From contig JAFGTD010000004.1 of NCBI GenBank assembly GCA_016934295.1, positions 1 through 35,387 on the forward strand: DNA of 35,387 nucleotides, written 5' to 3'. Under the pieces are notes generated by a model, which did no database searches, was not told where the DNA came from, and saw only the letters and a program-made list of their open reading frames with translations. The DNA comes from Acidobacteriota bacterium (GTDB taxonomy: Bacteria > Acidobacteriota > UBA6911). Every line of letters starts with the position of its first letter. The stretch's first letter is position 1. Below are positions 15,594 to 21,959 of the stretch, piece by piece. Position numbers and translations under genes: made by a program.

Positions 15594-16073
15594 TTATTGC
15601 TGCAACCGGGAACAGATGTTTTTCAGGGCGGCAAGGAGCGAAGGTAAGAGCTTCGACATCTCCCGAGTCAGCCCCTGTTTCGGGGAAACGTCGAAAGGCT
15701 GAACGCCGAATATACCGATCGTTCGATCATAGCCCAGCGTTCTGGCGAGTTCCAATCCTTCCGCCAGCCCCAGCCCGTGCGTCGAGACGGAACTGGTTTT
15801 CATAGTTATTGCAGCATTGTTGTCTGAAAAGAAACTGTATTCCCCGGGAGCGAGACCCATATCGGCGGCATCAACCAGAATTACCGGTTTTTGCCATTCC
15901 AGAAGCGATGAAGCCACCATGGCGGCATCGGCGCACTCCAGGAGAATGCAGCATTCGGCGTATTCCAATTCCCGGGACAGGGCCCGGACCAGGGCGAGCC
16001 CGATTTCATCGTCACCGCCTGCCGGCGTTCCCGTTCCTACAACCAGCCAGTCCGAATCCGGATACGATTCCAT
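15594..16073 (-). CDS. Hydrogenase maturation protease (HycI/HoxW type)
   Basis: A 159-residue endopeptidase of the hydrogenase maturation family. The N-terminus has WLVVGTGTPAGGDDEIGLAL; the usual GNxxxxDDGxG appears as GTGTPAGGDDEIG, with the metal-binding acidic residue kept. The second region is VILVDAADMG and the third has SVSTHGLGLAEGLELARTLG, carrying the conserved His. It removes the C-terminal tail of the large subunit after nickel insertion; its substrate is presumably the alpha subunit encoded just upstream. The ATG at 16073 (MESYPDSDW) is chosen because AAGGA lies eight bases before it and because the longer frame to 16160 is encoded by a palindromic repeat element. It is 227 bases downstream of the alpha gene. 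Confidence 0.88.
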   Translation of the reverse strand: MESYPDSDWLVVGTGTPAGGDDEIGLALVRALSRELEYAECCILLECADAAMVASSLLEWQKPVILVDAADMGLAPGEYSFFSDNNAAITMKTSSVSTHGLGLAEGLELARTLGYDRTIGIFGVQPFDVSPKQGLTREMSKLLPSLLAALKNICSRLQQ

Positions 16074-16110
16074 CCGAAGATCCTTTGGTCTATGCTCGTA
16101 ACTCCTTGGT

Positions 16111-16205
16111 CCGCATTTCTCGCAGGATTTCTGTCGTGGAGATTCCGTTTTGCCAGCCATGTTGAAACCTGTAGCGAAGCGATCGAACTAACGGGAGAAA
16201 TGCGG
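16111..16205. repeat. Palindromic repeat element, copy A
   Basis: Terminal inverted repeats CCGCATTTCTC (16111-16121) and GAGAAATGCGG (16195-16205) are perfect over 11 bases. The interior contains GCAGGATTTCTGTCG and GTAGCGAAGC, both shared with copy B at 20299, and similarity continues to about 16236 (TTAACCTCAATTCCG). It lies between the hydrogenase alpha gene and the maturation protease gene. The long 5' extension of the protease ORF is translated from this element. Confidence 0.7.
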
Positions 16206-16300
16206 ATTAACCTCAATTCCGAAGTTGGATTATCCCACGTTAAACTATTGAGATCCAAAGATTTCGACCTCTTTAAGTGTCACAATATCGGAATGGAGGC

Positions 16301-17608
16301 TTAATCGACAAATTCCACGTCCAACATATGCACGGAACAGGAGATGCAGGGATCGTAAGCCCGCAAAAGCATTTCCATATGAAGCGTAAGCTCATCCTGC
16401 GACATTTTGGGGAGCATTTCGGGTACAAACGCCTTCATGTCCTGCTCAACATTGTTAATATTCTGGCTGGTGGGGATCACCGCATTGGCGTCGATGCAAC
16501 GGCCGTTTTCATCGAATGTATAATCGTGAAAGAGTATGCCCCGGGGCACTTCGCAGGATGCTATCCCATGGCCTGCCTTCACCTGGTAGGAGGTATCCTC
16601 GGCTTTGAGCCCGCCGCCCAGCACTTCATCCAGCATCCGGACGCTGTTGTAGGCGCAGTGGACGACTTCCACCACCTGAGCCACGTTGTTCATGTACGGA
16701 TTGTAGCAGGGCACGTTAAGCCCAAGCGCCGCCGCCGCCTGCTTCGCCTCGGGAAGCAGCTGATCGAAGTTGTTGTTTACCCTTGCCAGGGCTCCGACAA
16801 AGTAGGAGTCGCGATGCCACTTGGACCATTTGGTCGTGCAATGTGCGACGGTGAATTCGTTCGTTACATCCCGGTATTGGTCTACGGGAACCGCGGACTT
16901 CGTGTCCGAACTGTAAACATCCCCATCATAAAGGGCGTATTCATCCGGGTGCTTCAGCGAAACAAATTCCGTCTCCCTTTCATAAGGAGGAACCTTGAGA
17001 GTTTTGACTATGCCGATGGTCTCTTCCAGATCCGGGATTGCATCCAGCATTCGCTTGCGCAGTGCGGCAACGGCATCCAGATCCGGAAGCTTCCTCCATC
17101 CTTTCAGGGTGTTGGCCATGGGATGCAGCATGCGTCCGCCGAACACGGCCGTGTAATCGTTTGCCAGCTTTTTAAGCCGGAGCGCCCGTTTTACTACTTC
17201 GGGGTGCGTTTTTGCCAGCGGCAACACGCTTTGGACGCCCAGGTAATCGGGCACCGCCAGGAAATAAACATGCAGGAGATGACTCTGCAGAAACTGGGAT
17301 TCCGTCAGGAGCTTGCGGAGCAGGACGGTCTGGGGGCTGACCTCAATACCGAGGGCCGCCTCCACGGCCTTGGTGGCCGTCATTTGGTGTCCCACGCAGC
17401 AAATCCCGCAGATGCGGCTGACAATCCAGGGAATTTCCGCCGGATGCATTCCCCGGACAAAATTTTCAAAAAAACGGTTGGCTTCCGTGATGGAAAGCTT
17501 TACCTCTTTAACAGCGCCTTCTTTGGTGCTGACAATAATCCGTCCGTGCCCTTCCACGCGGGTAACATGGTTGACGTCGATTTTATATGTTTTTTCTTTC
17601 AAATCCAT
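16301..17608 (-). CDS. hydA: [NiFe]-hydrogenase large (alpha) subunit, group 3b type
   Basis: A 435-residue catalytic subunit that binds the Ni-Fe(CN)2CO site. Motif L1 is RICGICCVGH (C67, C70, H74) and L2 is DPCISCSVH (C421, C424, H427). The eight residues after H427 (MLDVEFVD) are the tail expected to be cut by the maturation protease encoded downstream. RVEGHGRI near the N-terminus is also typical. The short L2 and the neighbouring beta, gamma and delta genes assign it to the cytoplasmic NADP-linked bidirectional hydrogenases (sulfhydrogenase, HydBGDA). It is two bases downstream of the delta gene. The reaction is H2 oxidation or evolution coupled to NADP(H); elemental sulfur or polysulfide reduction is known for archaeal relatives. 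All metal ligands are intact. Confidence 0.95.
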   Translation of the reverse strand: MDLKEKTYKIDVNHVTRVEGHGRIIVSTKEGAVKEVKLSITEANRFFENFVRGMHPAEIPWIVSRICGICCVGHQMTATKAVEAALGIEVSPQTVLLRKLLTESQFLQSHLLHVYFLAVPDYLGVQSVLPLAKTHPEVVKRALRLKKLANDYTAVFGGRMLHPMANTLKGWRKLPDLDAVAALRKRMLDAIPDLEETIGIVKTLKVPPYERETEFVSLKHPDEYALYDGDVYSSDTKSAVPVDQYRDVTNEFTVAHCTTKWSKWHRDSYFVGALARVNNNFDQLLPEAKQAAAALGLNVPCYNPYMNNVAQVVEVVHCAYNSVRMLDEVLGGGLKAEDTSYQVKAGHGIASCEVPRGILFHDYTFDENGRCIDANAVIPTSQNINNVEQDMKAFVPEMLPKMSQDELTLHMEMLLRAYDPCISCSVHMLDVEFVD

Positions 17609-17610
17609 TT

Positions 17611-18387
17611 TCAGACTCCTCTGCCAATCGGTTCGGCGCCAAGGAAAAGACGGTATCGATTTCGGATGTCCTCGTCTTTAATATTGTGTTCCCGCATCAG
17701 GGTTATATGGGAATCGATGTTGGCATGGGGAAGCGTTCCGCGACAGCCGTCGCATACATAGCCGTTATTGACGCAGATGCTGTTGCACCCGCCCCAGGTT
17801 ATCGGTCCCATGCAGGTTTCCCCGCGTTCCAGGACGCACTCGTTTCCATTTTTCTTGCATTCCACGCAAACGGCATCAGGCGGGAAAAACGGCGTGGTTC
17901 CATGCAGCACGGATTTCACCAGATGCAGGAATTCCGCCGGCACCACCGGGCAACCGCGAAGATATGCGTCCACCTTTACAACGGCATCCAGGGGCCGCAC
18001 GCGCGTGTGCGACCATAGAGACCAGTGGTCGGCATCCACCTGAACCCGGTTCCGGGCTTCCTCTCCATAGATCACTTCATAATTGACGGCCGGCGCTACG
18101 AAGTTGGAACGGGCCTGAACGTTGCCGTTGCAGGCGCATGCACCCAGCGCAACCAGGACGGTAGTTCGGGATCGCAGGTTCTGGAGCCGTTCGATGTCTT
18201 CGTCCCGGTGGATACTTCCTTCTACAAAAGCTATATCATAGCGCGGCGCTTTTTCGGAGAGAGCTTCGCGGAACTCCACGAGATTAACAAGGTTAAGGAT
18301 GTCGAGTAAAATATCCTCGCAGTTAAGGATAGCCAGCTGGCATCCCTCGCAGCTGGCAAAATCGAAAAATGCCACTTTGGGTTTCAT
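17611..18387 (-). CDS. hydD: [NiFe]-hydrogenase small (delta) subunit
   Basis: A 258-residue subunit of the NADH:ubiquinone oxidoreductase 20-kDa type. The N-terminal SCEGCQLAILNCEDILLDIL carries the proximal [4Fe-4S] cysteines, followed by ALGACACNGNVQA and RGCPVVPAEFL. Further cysteines (VCVECKKNGNEC, ETCMGPITWGGC, CVNNGYVCDGC) supply the additional clusters. It passes electrons between the Ni-Fe site in alpha and the gamma subunit. The ATG at 18387 overlaps the gamma stop by four bases and the stop sits two bases before the alpha start, so translation is coupled. Confidence 0.94.
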   Translation of the reverse strand: MKPKVAFFDFASCEGCQLAILNCEDILLDILNLVNLVEFREALSEKAPRYDIAFVEGSIHRDEDIERLQNLRSRTTVLVALGACACNGNVQARSNFVAPAVNYEVIYGEEARNRVQVDADHWSLWSHTRVRPLDAVVKVDAYLRGCPVVPAEFLHLVKSVLHGTTPFFPPDAVCVECKKNGNECVLERGETCMGPITWGGCNSICVNNGYVCDGCRGTLPHANIDSHITLMREHNIKDEDIRNRYRLFLGAEPIGRGV

Positions 18388-19238
18388 TGAAGCGCCTCCG
18401 GTATACCTGAAAGATCGGAGAACCGGAACACCGGTCCATCCTGACAGCAGTAAATCTTATTGATCTGGCAGTGTCCGCATTTGCCCACACCGCATTTCAT
18501 GCGCCGTTCGAGATCGACAAAAATCTGGTCGAAGTTCATCCCCCGAACGTTGAGAGCCTTGATGACGAATTTGTACATAACCGGGGGACCGCAAAGAGCG
18601 GCCATGGTTTTTTTCGGATCCATTTCCAGTTTTGGGATAGGATCGGTAACAAGGCCGGTACCGAATTCCCACGGCATATTTTCCGTACCGTCCACGAGCC
18701 TGATTACGTCCATTCCCGCGTCCGTCGTCCACGTCTCGAGTTGGTCGCGATACAGCTCTTCGGCCGGGTTCCGGCAACCGGAAATCAGCGTGATGTTTCC
18801 GAAACGGCCCCGTTCCTTGATGATAGGTGTAATCAGGGACCGCAGCGGCACCAGGCCGAGCCCTCCGGCTACGAAGAGCACATCGTGGCTATAGAAATCA
18901 TCCAGGTTAAAACCGGATCCGTAGGGACCGCGAATGCCCAGCTGGTCCCCGACCTTCAGTTCGTGAATTGCCTGGGTCAGGCGGCCTATGCGGCGAATGA
19001 CCATTTCCAGGATATTGTCTTCCGAGGGGCCATTGCTTATAGATATGGGAGCTTCGCCCAAACCGAGGACGGAAACCATCACGAACTGCCCCGGCCCGTG
19101 TCCCAAAGGTTTTTCAAGTTCGATCCGGAAATACCGGTCCTTGGCGGTCATGTCGGCAATCTCGACAATCTTGCCGATCTGCGGAAGAAAAGTCTCCCTG
19201 GCAATCTGATCGTATTGAGACGGAACGGTTTTCATCAT
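18384..19238 (-). CDS. hydG: Hydrogenase gamma subunit, FAD/NAD(P)-binding with [2Fe-2S] site
   Basis: A 284-residue flavoprotein of the ferredoxin-NADP reductase fold. The FAD region contains HGPGQFVMVSVLGLGEAPIS followed by ISNGP; the nucleotide-binding half has VLFVAGGLGLVPLRSL and later MAALCGPPVM. The C-terminal [2Fe-2S] motif is CGVGKCGHC with C249, C254, C257 and C264 or C265, as in dihydroorotate dehydrogenase PyrK and the sulfhydrogenase gamma subunit. It is the NADP(H)-reacting module. Its start overlaps the beta stop, and its stop overlaps the delta start, by four bases each. Confidence 0.94.
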   Translation of the reverse strand: MMKTVPSQYDQIARETFLPQIGKIVEIADMTAKDRYFRIELEKPLGHGPGQFVMVSVLGLGEAPISISNGPSEDNILEMVIRRIGRLTQAIHELKVGDQLGIRGPYGSGFNLDDFYSHDVLFVAGGLGLVPLRSLITPIIKERGRFGNITLISGCRNPAEELYRDQLETWTTDAGMDVIRLVDGTENMPWEFGTGLVTDPIPKLEMDPKKTMAALCGPPVMYKFVIKALNVRGMNFDQIFVDLERRMKCGVGKCGHCQINKIYCCQDGPVFRFSDLSGIPEALQ

Positions 19239-20281
19239 TGATCTCCTTCATTTATCAAATCAGCGACAATATCGTATATATCGATTTTGGCCGTGCATTG
19301 CCGGCCGCATCGCCCGCACCCGACACAGACCGCACCATGGCCAAATTTTTCCGTCAGGTATTCAAATTTTCGTTTGACCCTGTGGCGTTGTCTTGCCGCC
19401 GGATCGGGACGGAAATTGTGGCCGCCGCCTACAACAGCAAAGTGAGGCAGCATGCAGCCGTCCCAGGTTCGGGTCCGGTTGCCCGATGCCACATCCAGAT
19501 TCATGTCGTCGCTTACATCAAAACAGTAACAGGTGGGGCAAACCAGGTTGCAGCTGCCGCAGGAGAAACAGCGTTCGACATGTTTGTCCCAGACGGGACT
19601 TTTCCATTTTTCGGCGACATTTTTATAAATATCCTGGGCGGTGACCGGGAACGTACGGCCAAACGGCTCCGGCATATCAGCGACCGTTCCCACTTTTCTG
19701 GCGGGCCCGTCATCGCACGTCTGCCAATCGGTTCCGGCCGCCAGTTTCTCTCCAAGTTCCGTTTTTACCTCAACCAAAAGATCCCCGTGCTTAAGAGGCG
19801 TGATAAAAATATCCGCGCCTTCGGTGTGGTGCAGAGAATCCACTGCGGCACAGAACACCCGCGAGTCGCATGGAGCCGTGCATGCCCAGCCGACCAGGGC
19901 CGTATTCTCGCGTCGCGCCAGGTAGTGTGCATCCGGCACGCCATCCTTTAAGAACAGGTCAATCAGGAAAATTGCTTTAAGATCGCAAGGCCGCACGCCG
20001 GCTATCACACGAAAGGATTCGTCAAGAGTCGGATTTATTTCGGTCTTGCCGTCCGCATGCTTTTTAAAGCTTAAAAGCTCTTCCCGTGCCGGGATAAGCA
20101 ACTTGACCGGCGGCAATACCGTAGGGGTGTAATGTTCAAACTGTATGTCGGAATCGGCTTTGACTTCTGCGAATCGGTAACTCGCATGCCCGAATTTTTC
20201 CGGGAAATATACCGGGTTTTCGGAAGCCGTCTTTCTTATCCAGTTGGTTATGTTCTGTAGAGTGGTAAGGTAATAACTCAT
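19235..20281 (-). CDS. hydB: Hydrogenase beta subunit, 4Fe-4S dicluster protein
   Basis: A 348-residue iron-sulfur subunit, first gene of the hydrogenase operon. The N-terminal half has IAGVRPCDLKAIFLID and WACTAPCDSRVFC, conserved in the sulfhydrogenase beta and anaerobic sulfite reductase A family. The C-terminal half carries two [4Fe-4S] motifs, RCFSCGSCNLVCPTCYC and VCVGCGRCGRQC. It probably relays electrons to a further acceptor such as polysulfide or ferredoxin. The ATG at 20281 has GAGG about nine bases upstream. Palindromic copy B begins only 17 bases upstream, inside what must be the 5' untranslated region or promoter. Confidence 0.94.
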   Translation of the reverse strand: MSYYLTTLQNITNWIRKTASENPVYFPEKFGHASYRFAEVKADSDIQFEHYTPTVLPPVKLLIPAREELLSFKKHADGKTEINPTLDESFRVIAGVRPCDLKAIFLIDLFLKDGVPDAHYLARRENTALVGWACTAPCDSRVFCAAVDSLHHTEGADIFITPLKHGDLLVEVKTELGEKLAAGTDWQTCDDGPARKVGTVADMPEPFGRTFPVTAQDIYKNVAEKWKSPVWDKHVERCFSCGSCNLVCPTCYCFDVSDDMNLDVASGNRTRTWDGCMLPHFAVVGGGHNFRPDPAARQRHRVKRKFEYLTEKFGHGAVCVGCGRCGRQCTAKIDIYDIVADLINEGDQ

Positions 20282-20912: not shown

Positions 20913-20948
20913 CCTGATCGGAGCCTGTCTTTGAAAGACCTTCTCAGG
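20913..20948 (-). terminator. Hairpin at the end of the small peptide gene
   Basis: CCTGA (20913-20917) pairs with TCAGG (20944-20948), around an inner near-palindrome GTCTTTGAAAGAC (20927-20939). The outer arm overlaps the stop codon of the 68-residue peptide. No T-run follows, so it is only a weak terminator candidate. Confidence 0.3.
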
Positions 20949-21150
20949 ATGGAAAATTATCATTACAGATGGCGGGGCAGGTGCCTTTGATCTGCTCAAA
21001 GCAAAGGTTTTTACTGGTCTTGGCAACGGCGGACTGCTGGCCGCCGCCTTTGCAGGCCAGCAATACGGCTTCCTCCGGCCGGCTTCTCACGAGAACAATC
21101 AATTGCGGTTTTTCCCATTTTTTCTTCGGTTTTGTAGCGCTGTCGGTCAT
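20944..21150 (-). CDS. Small Cys-containing peptide, possible modified-peptide precursor
   Basis: A 68-residue peptide. It has a Lys-rich start (TKPKKKWEKPQLIVLVRSRP), then EEAVLLACK, then a Gly/Ser/Cys-containing tail (KGGGQQSAVAKTSKN, LCFEQIKGTCPAICNDNFPS). Cysteines are at 33, 50, 58 and 62. The segment WxxPxLxxLxRxxPEEAVLxxCK gives the impression of a conserved leader, followed by a variable Cys-bearing core, the layout of ribosomally made, post-translationally modified peptides. I recall similar short ORFs in anaerobes but no named family. No radical-SAM, lanthipeptide or cyclodehydratase enzyme, protease or ABC exporter is near, so this rests on layout alone. The ATG at 21150 has AGGAT eight bases upstream. 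A LuxR-type response regulator lies immediately upstream on the same strand. Confidence 0.6.
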   Translation of the reverse strand: MTDSATKPKKKWEKPQLIVLVRSRPEEAVLLACKGGGQQSAVAKTSKNLCFEQIKGTCPAICNDNFPS

Positions 21151-21289
21151 ACAAACATCCTATCGGTCGTTCCAAGGAATAGGGTGGTTTTTTCCCCAGT
21201 CCGGAACCTCTTGGGTAAATCGATTCAAACACTGCTATTATCGGAATTCTTTTGGTATTTCTGAATAGGCAAATATCTGAAGGATTAAT

Positions 21290-21320: not shown

Positions 21321-21959
21321 TTAGCCCATGTAAAGAATGCCCTTTTCCCTCCCGAGCTTGATCAGTTGGACAACCGTGTCGGCGCCCAGTTTTTTCATCA
21401 GATTCTGGCGGTGTGTGTAGGCGGTTTTTACGCTGATATTCAGTTCCAGTGCGATTTCTTTCATCCTCTTACCATGGTCAAGCAATTGTAGAATTTGTTT
21501 CTCTCTTTCAGTAATCACCTGTTGCTTCGAAGGCTGCCGGATGTAGGAGTCGATCAGGGTGCGCGCTATGGATGGGCTAATATAATTCTTATGGTCCGAA
21601 ACGCTCTGAATTGCCGTGACCACTTCCTCGAGTTTGCTGTTTTTTAACACATAGCCCATTGCGCCCGCTTTAAACATCTGCTCGACGAAACCTCGATCCT
21701 CGTGACCGGAGAGGGCAATAATTCGAGTATCGGGAAGGTCCGACATTATCCTGCGGGTTGCCTCAATTCCATTAATGTCGCACATATCCACATCCATGAG
21801 GATGATATCGGGATTGGCCTCAAGCGCAATCTGAATAGCTTCCCGCCCACTGGAGGCTGTTCCGATGAGATCAATGCCCTCAATCATTTTAAGTGTTCGA
21901 GCCATCAGATCCAGGAAGAGGATTTCGTCATCGACGATCAGTACTCGTGTCTTATTCAA
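21321..21959 (-). CDS. NarL/LuxR-family response regulator
   Basis: A 212-residue regulator. The receiver has D10/D11 (VLIVDDE), phospho-acceptor D56 (IILMDVDMC), the S/T position in IIALSGHED and K in YVLKNSKLEE. The C-terminal LuxR-type HTH spans about residues 150-205 (ITEREKQILQLLDHGKRMKE, then IALELNISVKTAYTHRQNLM). The start is TTG at 21959 with AGGAG six bases upstream (product MNKTRVLIVDD); no ATG fits. No histidine kinase is adjacent, so it is an orphan unless it pairs with the kinase at 14116. Its neighbours are the small peptide gene downstream and a sigma-54 activator upstream, both possible targets or partners by position only. Confidence 0.93.
   Translation of the reverse strand: MNKTRVLIVDDEILFLDLMARTLKMIEGIDLIGTASSGREAIQIALEANPDIILMDVDMCDINGIEATRRIMSDLPDTRIIALSGHEDRGFVEQMFKAGAMGYVLKNSKLEEVVTAIQSVSDHKNYISPSIARTLIDSYIRQPSKQQVITEREKQILQLLDHGKRMKEIALELNISVKTAYTHRQNLMKKLGADTVVQLIKLGREKGILYMG

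Follow-up and report, generated by a model that had tools for sequence, protein, structure and literature searches.

A 35,387-nucleotide stretch of an Acidobacteriota draft genome (GCA_016934295.1, contig JAFGTD010000004.1, positions 1 to 35,387; hereafter the window) carries on its minus strand a 68-codon open reading frame (ORF) whose product, MTDSATKPKKKWEKPQLIVLVRSRPEEAVLLACKGGGQQSAVAKTSKNLCFEQIKGTCPAICNDNFPS, looks like the precursor of a modified peptide. Is this a gene, and where are the enzymes that would act on its product? We find that the peptide belongs to a widespread family without a convincing match in Pfam or NCBIfam, and we hold with good confidence that the gene encodes the precursor of a ribosomally synthesized and post-translationally modified peptide (RiPP) matured by enzymes encoded elsewhere in its own genome. 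This interpretation rests on the gene itself, selection, the family, gene association, a predicted kinase-like fold and the single PqqD of the draft genome. The gene and the parts of its product are the following.

20944-21150, minus strand, stop codon included: precursor ORF of 68 residues, from its translation, a match to a profile that includes this peptide among its rows, and a ratio of nonsynonymous to synonymous divergence (dN/dS) of 0.17 against its paralog.
21158-21161, minus strand: AGGA, a likely ribosome-binding site read from the sequence, 7 nt 5' of the ATG.
21049-21117, minus strand: leader, W12 to K34 (WEKPQLIVLVRSRPEEAVLLACK), the predicted PqqD-binding recognition segment, marked by conservation (dN 0.047, dS 1.03).
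20947-21048, minus strand: variable tail, residues 35-68, the predicted core with Cys50, Cys58 and Cys62, hypervariable except for Cys and the last residue (dN 0.25, dS 0.95).
20947-20949, minus strand: Ser68, the C-terminal residue and candidate phosphorylation site, a terminal Ser or Thr being conserved across the family.

The original prediction gave this ORF, with Cys at positions 33, 50, 58 and 62, but named no strand; the ORF lies on the minus strand, begins with ATG and is real, its paralog and selection going beyond chance. Mechanically called ORFs overlap it on both strands (20969-21268, plus; 21011-21232, minus), and the plus strand at 20944-21150 codes for a different product. The peptide falls into no Pfam or NCBIfam family up to E 1. 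A DNA search of its own genome returns one other site, on contig C2, where 178 of the 207 bases align at 78% identity:

L003:7122-7313: the C2 precursor copy, inside a maturation cluster.

The two peptides are 76% identical over residues 10-68, with 22/24 positions shared in the leader and 23/34 in the tail. Across their 58 aligned codons, 17 changes are synonymous and 13 alter the amino acid (dN 0.163, dS 0.98, dN/dS 0.17), 23 of the 41 base differences fall on third codon positions, and the 13 amino-acid-changing codons compare with a mean of 27 under random placement, none of 20,000 trials reaching 13. The low ratio indicates that the pair diverged as protein-coding sequence, with the leader (ratio 0.05) held tighter than the tail (dN 0.254, ratio 0.27). 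The copies are under purifying selection, a pairwise measure that carries no information on the branch where selection acted, and the window gene is almost certainly functional.

Homologs, whose absence would have counted against the prediction, are found in many phyla. A degenerate scan together with profiles gives 131 non-redundant members, the window copy included; the set joins pattern-found and profile-found members, several leader positions being fixed by the pattern. Within the phylum, a four-member profile matches 24/396 genomes at E 0.01 (the window's own included) and a 74-member profile 40/396 at E 0.001, some weakly; one match, in a 531-residue ORF of genome G356, looks like chance. 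The degenerate DNA pattern of the leader matches at least 117 stretches in named genomes, 116 of which hold a profile-accepted ORF. The titles of 80 of these 117 stretches name, among others, Aminicenantes, Omnitrophota, deltaproteobacteria, Chlorobiaceae, Chloroflexi, Actinomycetota, Planctomycetota, WOR-3 and Methanomicrobiales/Methanotrichaceae; nearly all are draft metagenome bins, and the phylum and archaeal labels of members are those bins' titles. At E 0.01, curated models match the 74 members in only three cases, two of lasso type (E 0.005 and 0.009) and one Myb (0.004). Two further leads were dropped: the A3 alignment profile reached two solved structures at chance level (E 0.11 and 0.14), and in-frame TGA codons of relatives, considered as selenocysteine, are by eye ordinary terminal stops.

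The conserved leader reads WxxPxLxxLxRxxPEExVLxxCK, and a sister subfamily starts with Tyr (YxxPxLxxVxLRPEEAVLGxCK-like). W12, P15, L17, E27, L30, C33 and K34 are invariant in the profile-found alignment A2; they are likewise invariant in A3, most of whose members were found by the pattern that fixes them. Tails are 26-37 residues long in 116/131 members and hold three Cys in 82/131 or two in 37/131, with a Cys seventh from the C-terminal end in 109/131 and Ser or Thr as last residue in 126/131. The window peptide, with Cys50, Cys58, Cys62 (seventh from the end) and Ser68, is typical. A terminal Ser or Thr is found in 42/43 non-redundant members from profile-fetched loci (54 distinct peptides before redundancy removal, some also matching the pattern), compared with 65/439 other ORFs of at least 200 residues at the pattern loci. 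The expectation of a conserved front and a varying tail stands in its main part. Between random pairs, leader positions left free by the pattern show an identity of 0.315 against 0.086 when shuffled (ungapped; 0.316 against 0.175 gapped), whereas tails stripped of Cys and the last residue reach 0.235 against 0.228 (gapped); uncorrected, the contrast is smaller (0.321 for free leader positions, 0.276 for the whole tail). The tail is not entirely unconstrained, however: its Cys and terminal Ser/Thr are kept, and two subfamilies have tails that are similar between genomes.

Where, then, are the enzymes? Profiles built for the family's PqqD, radical S-adenosylmethionine (radical SAM), kinase-like, peptidase-like, nucleotidyltransferase and ATP-binding cassette (ABC) proteins find no match in the window, as the remark that no maturase or exporter lies nearby had it. 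On C2 the paralog is surrounded by them. In order, the cluster comprises a PF14907 nucleotidyltransferase on the opposite strand, a radical SAM enzyme that carries a fused P-loop domain (kinase-like, with a predicted PEPCK/HprK fold), a second radical SAM enzyme, the precursor, PqqD (PF05402, E 5e-16), a signal-peptidase-like protein whose acetyltransferase-like end scores slightly below the Pfam cut-off, a third radical SAM enzyme and an ABC exporter. A radical SAM domain is found in the radical SAM proteins, which also show similarity to SPASM-named NCBIfam models (all those listed below cut-off) and C-terminal Cys motifs. The association is general, in line with the prediction that homologs would sit beside such genes: PqqD or radical SAM homologues occur in 81/116 loci of up to 8 kb, a count made with profiles built from the same loci, of which the one for radical SAM might also pick up unrelated proteins of that kind. 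As a density control, the frequency of radical SAM matches in 65 longer stretches is 93/Mb up to 4 kb from a precursor and 4/Mb beyond 6 kb. The cultured isolate Desulfobotulus alkaliphilus ASO4-4 (locus L247) carries the series nucleotidyltransferase, kinase-like protein, radical SAM, PqqD, S26-like protein, radical SAM, precursor, ABC. Beside two other family clusters, at L186:5500-9390 and L199:11693-15532, we observe second gene sets, perhaps a sister system, in which PqqD-like segments are fused to a radical SAM enzyme and an ABC exporter and a short kinase-like protein complete the set.

The 74-member profile finds no precursors in the window's genome other than the window and C2 copies, and a profile search finds a single PqqD, beside the paralog. 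With the only PqqD found there, maturation in trans is the best reading, and we consider it probable for the window peptide; an unclustered precursor served by enzymes encoded elsewhere is what had been proposed. Other genomes are arranged similarly. G114 and G177 each have an orphan whose 19.5-kb stretch lacks maturation genes, and a further copy next to a radical SAM sequence, which is the arrangement of the window genome. In the 1.5-Mb genome G406, titled Omnitrophota (that of locus L103), 21 precursors lie on 10 contigs with one PqqD, and of the 12 stretches (L215-L226) that cover all of them, one holds maturation genes. Among 102 precursors of 29 genomes, a PqqD lies no more than 5 kb from 23, within 15 kb of 9 and farther away from 2, while 68 are on contigs without one, a share biased upward because the genomes were picked mainly for loci without visible maturases, with many contigs short; PqqD matches were taken to about E 3e-9, weaker ones, by eye, never falling on precursor contigs.

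How might such a peptide be matured? The N-terminal half (WxxPxLxxLxRxxPEEAVLxxCK) would bind the PqqD-type recognition protein, a step we regard as very probable by analogy: PqqD-type elements bind W/Y/LxxP/L/I recognition sequences (as reported in excerpts of PMC12710340), which the window leader fits with WEKPQL. PqqD would then present the Cys-containing tail to the radical SAM enzymes, which probably introduce Cys-based cross-links; we lean towards such links, a guess from the Cys content and from relatives such as SkfB. The PEPCK/HprK-fold domain, fused here to one radical SAM enzyme, would phosphorylate Ser68, a step for which we see even chances. In lasso clusters, homologs of HPr kinase place a phosphate on the last Ser of the precursor, the rest of which matters little, and in pseudomycoidin a nucleotidyltransferase adds a hexose to that phosphate (excerpts of PMC8498205; also PMC7533575). 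A lasso-like terminal phosphorylation is suggested here by the kinase-fold domain, the PF14907 nucleotidyltransferase of some clusters and the near-universal terminal Ser/Thr, and the nucleotidyltransferase may extend the phosphate group. The signal-peptidase-like protein may cut off the leader, and the ABC protein may export the product. As all these genes lie on C2 beside the paralog, the window copy would be served in trans. In the model of one relative (L053), the kinase-like protein is predicted to adopt a PEPCK/HprK superfamily fold with a P-loop.

Several points weigh against this scheme. Leader binding, cross-links, phosphorylation, cleavage, export and maturation in trans are inferred. 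Comparison of the modelled fold with HprK gives low TM-scores (0.24-0.32 by query), and PF07475 (HPr kinase) matches only the L247 protein, weakly (E 0.0019, 18.2 of 33.3), leaving the window genome's copy unmatched; against HprK proper (TIGR00679) the two score 22 and 15.2 of 240 bits, respectively, below cut-off. Pfam SPASM has no match at E 0.01 in the genome's own radical SAM proteins. The cluster's peptidase-like protein has Cys at a position that is usually Ser, which makes its cleavage of the leader less sure. Neither PqqD nor radical SAM is found in 35/116 loci, many of them cut short, and the genome is a draft of 343 contigs with completeness given as 93.8%, so that a nearer maturation cluster might be missing. 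Finally, two subfamilies have tails similar between genomes, several of their members being orphans.

Two of these points come with observations of their own. The Cys-for-Ser signal-peptidase-like protein occurs in longer forms of about 290-310 residues, at L044, L090, L108 and, in the window's genome, L003:7683-8549, the last with the acetyltransferase-like end. The two similar tail types are GPxRPANHxCLHPAFGPCQ (L188, L198, L228, L231), located among two-component genes, and GTGPEQAATGCMNVTGNAAC (L196, L200, L187, L137), with maturation genes near L137 and a kinase-like gene at L187; their products may have fixed roles.

Two features lie ahead of the peptide gene.

21237-21265, minus strand: TTCAGA-17-GATAAT, a weak (9/12) sigma-70-like site and possible promoter of the peptide gene; the region holds 7 such sites against 3.4 expected.
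21321-21959, minus strand: LuxR/NarL-type response regulator (Response_reg 2e-25, GerE 6e-15), given as context, its functional link unproven.

The regulator, which had been placed directly upstream, ends 170 nt from the peptide ORF on the same strand, with a PAS/sigma-54 activator farther upstream. The window copy could be a modified peptide that serves as a signal, either under the control of the adjacent two-component genes or sensed by way of them, with the C2 copy as the export product. We think this possible but unlikely; it is compatible with a RiPP precursor matured in trans, since that reading is silent on role. Response regulators occur no more than 500 nt from 8/37 orphan groups and from 1/31 clustered ones (nominal P 0.001), contig C43 of G408 has a histidine kinase, a LuxR-type regulator and the precursor on one strand, which is the window order with a kinase ahead, and a hybrid kinase abuts the precursor on contig C260 of G397. 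However, four of the eight regulator-linked groups are one orthologous locus, and counting it once leaves 5/34, one of them the window, where the background rate is 6%, making the two-component link weak and suggestive only; within the window, a histidine kinase is matched no nearer than 5.4 kb.

It is less probable still, indeed improbable, that the window gene is a decaying duplicate, a silent copy of the C2 precursor without a role of its own. Its surroundings are free of maturases, and the A3 profile, run on nine further genomes of the genus, has a match in only one, a Y-type peptide, as silent decay would allow. Yet purifying selection has acted across a synonymous distance near 1, the start, ribosome site and all Cys of the window copy are intact, and orphan copies recur in other genomes. 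That the peptide is a metal- or redox-binding Cys peptide working as translated, to which a nearly invariant Cys33, two or three tail Cys in most members and the hydrogenase operon downstream might point, is very improbable given the variable spacing and sequence between the tail Cys, the recurrent radical SAM/PqqD neighbours and a leader of the type reported for PqqD binding (excerpts of PMC12710340).

Downstream, the roughly 660 bases noted before the next gene measure 662 bp, after which a hydrogenase/sulfhydrogenase-like operon begins with a beta-type subunit. At 15594-20281 on the minus strand it has four genes that resemble sulfhydrogenase/NiFe-hydrogenase beta, gamma, delta and alpha subunits, then one for a maturation protease of HycI type; ahead of them lie two identical TTGACG-16-TATACT boxes (20677 and 20622), 55 nt apart. 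We rejected a sigma-54 promoter, for which the window has 7 matches where 14 are expected, and terminators near the peptide gene, which number 2 against an expected 2.4.

Taken together, the interpretation of the peptide as an unclustered precursor was essentially right, and an orphan ORF turns out to mark a large peptide family. Many of its precursors lie far from maturases, so that cluster mining anchored on maturases would partly miss it; the leader alone suffices to find them. A terminal Ser next to a kinase-fold domain makes a testable prediction of chemistry, and the cultured D. alkaliphilus, with a full gene set, makes the family workable. A bolder proposal, which we put forward tentatively and rate below even, is an undescribed RiPP class common to anaerobic bacteria and methanogenic archaea. 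In it a single set of maturation proteins, with radical SAM enzymes, PqqD and a kinase of the PEPCK/HprK fold, would modify many scattered precursors in trans, giving hypervariable, Cys-cross-linked peptides phosphorylated on a C-terminal Ser, with orphans recruited beside two-component systems as private signals.

How does this family compare with known systems? Lasso peptides with an HPr kinase (paeninodin, pseudomycoidin) share with it a PqqD-type protein, an HprK-like kinase, a nucleotidyltransferase and a C-terminal Ser (excerpts of PMC8498205 and PMC7533575), but the present family has radical SAM enzymes and Cys-rich tails. Membership was rejected: the nine ORFs scanned in the own cluster region include no asparagine-synthetase-like cyclase, transglutaminase-like protein or B2 protease, and the window copy matches no curated lasso family, the two weak matches among the 74 members including the only one to the paeninodin model (E 0.009). 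SynChlorMet cassettes (ScmC, ScmD, ScmE, ScmF; NCBIfam TIGR04248-TIGR04251) likewise combine HprK-like, PqqD-like and paired radical SAM proteins, the closest ScmC match being at L247 (E 2.6e-13). All these scores lie far under the cut-offs (for the own cluster, ScmF 113.8 of 400, ScmE 75.4 of 400, ScmD 28.2 of 100 and ScmC 31 of 125 bits), and we rejected membership; the present enzymes are distant relatives of the cassette. Radical SAM genes above the ScmE cut-off occur at other loci of some family genomes (3/30 and 1/38), and one of these loci, in G444, is the immediate neighbour of a present-family cluster and has a different candidate precursor. To our knowledge, the SynChlorMet precursor has never been identified. 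Candidates for such cassettes are L260:6165-6470 (G444, contig C85) and L264:16087-16386 (G445, contig C1), Cys-rich small ORFs with W/YxxP starts adjoining kinase-like genes (unscored against ScmC); the radical SAM gene of the L260 cassette, which adjoins the present-family cluster, is the one above the ScmE cut-off, that of L264 falling below it at 360 of 400 bits.

Sactipeptides and ranthipeptides also depend on radical SAM maturases acting on Cys peptides, as proposed here, and solved relatives of the present enzymes include SkfB, a sactisynthase (excerpt of PMC6231123). Unlike them, the present family has a kinase-like domain, a nucleotidyltransferase and a conserved terminal Ser, and thioether links are here only conjectural. 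Among open-licence papers, the only ones covered, so that absence from print is not proven, no title among the matches listed describes the family and the text PEEAVL does not occur. Those combining HPr kinase, radical SAM, precursor peptide, nucleotidyltransferase and PqqD terms are all on lasso peptides, and those pairing radical SAM, HprK, RiPP and C-terminal serine terms concern synthesis of other sactipeptides; nothing appeared for hypervariable core, radical SAM, precursor peptide and Omnitroph terms or for Methanomicrobiales with RiPP terms, and nothing relevant on SynChlorMet or GeoRSP.

Prochlorosins, with their Nif11-type precursors, have a conserved leader and a varied core. They offer many precursors to one promiscuous modifying enzyme, ProcM (excerpt of PMC10783134), as here, but differ in leader and enzymes, and Nif11-type leader models match none of the 74 members. 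With 21 precursors for a single maturation cluster, G406 would represent a form of prochlorosin-like combinatorial biosynthesis based on radical SAM enzymes. RiPPs, PqqD-radical SAM systems and scattered precursors are already known; the combination described here is a new variant.
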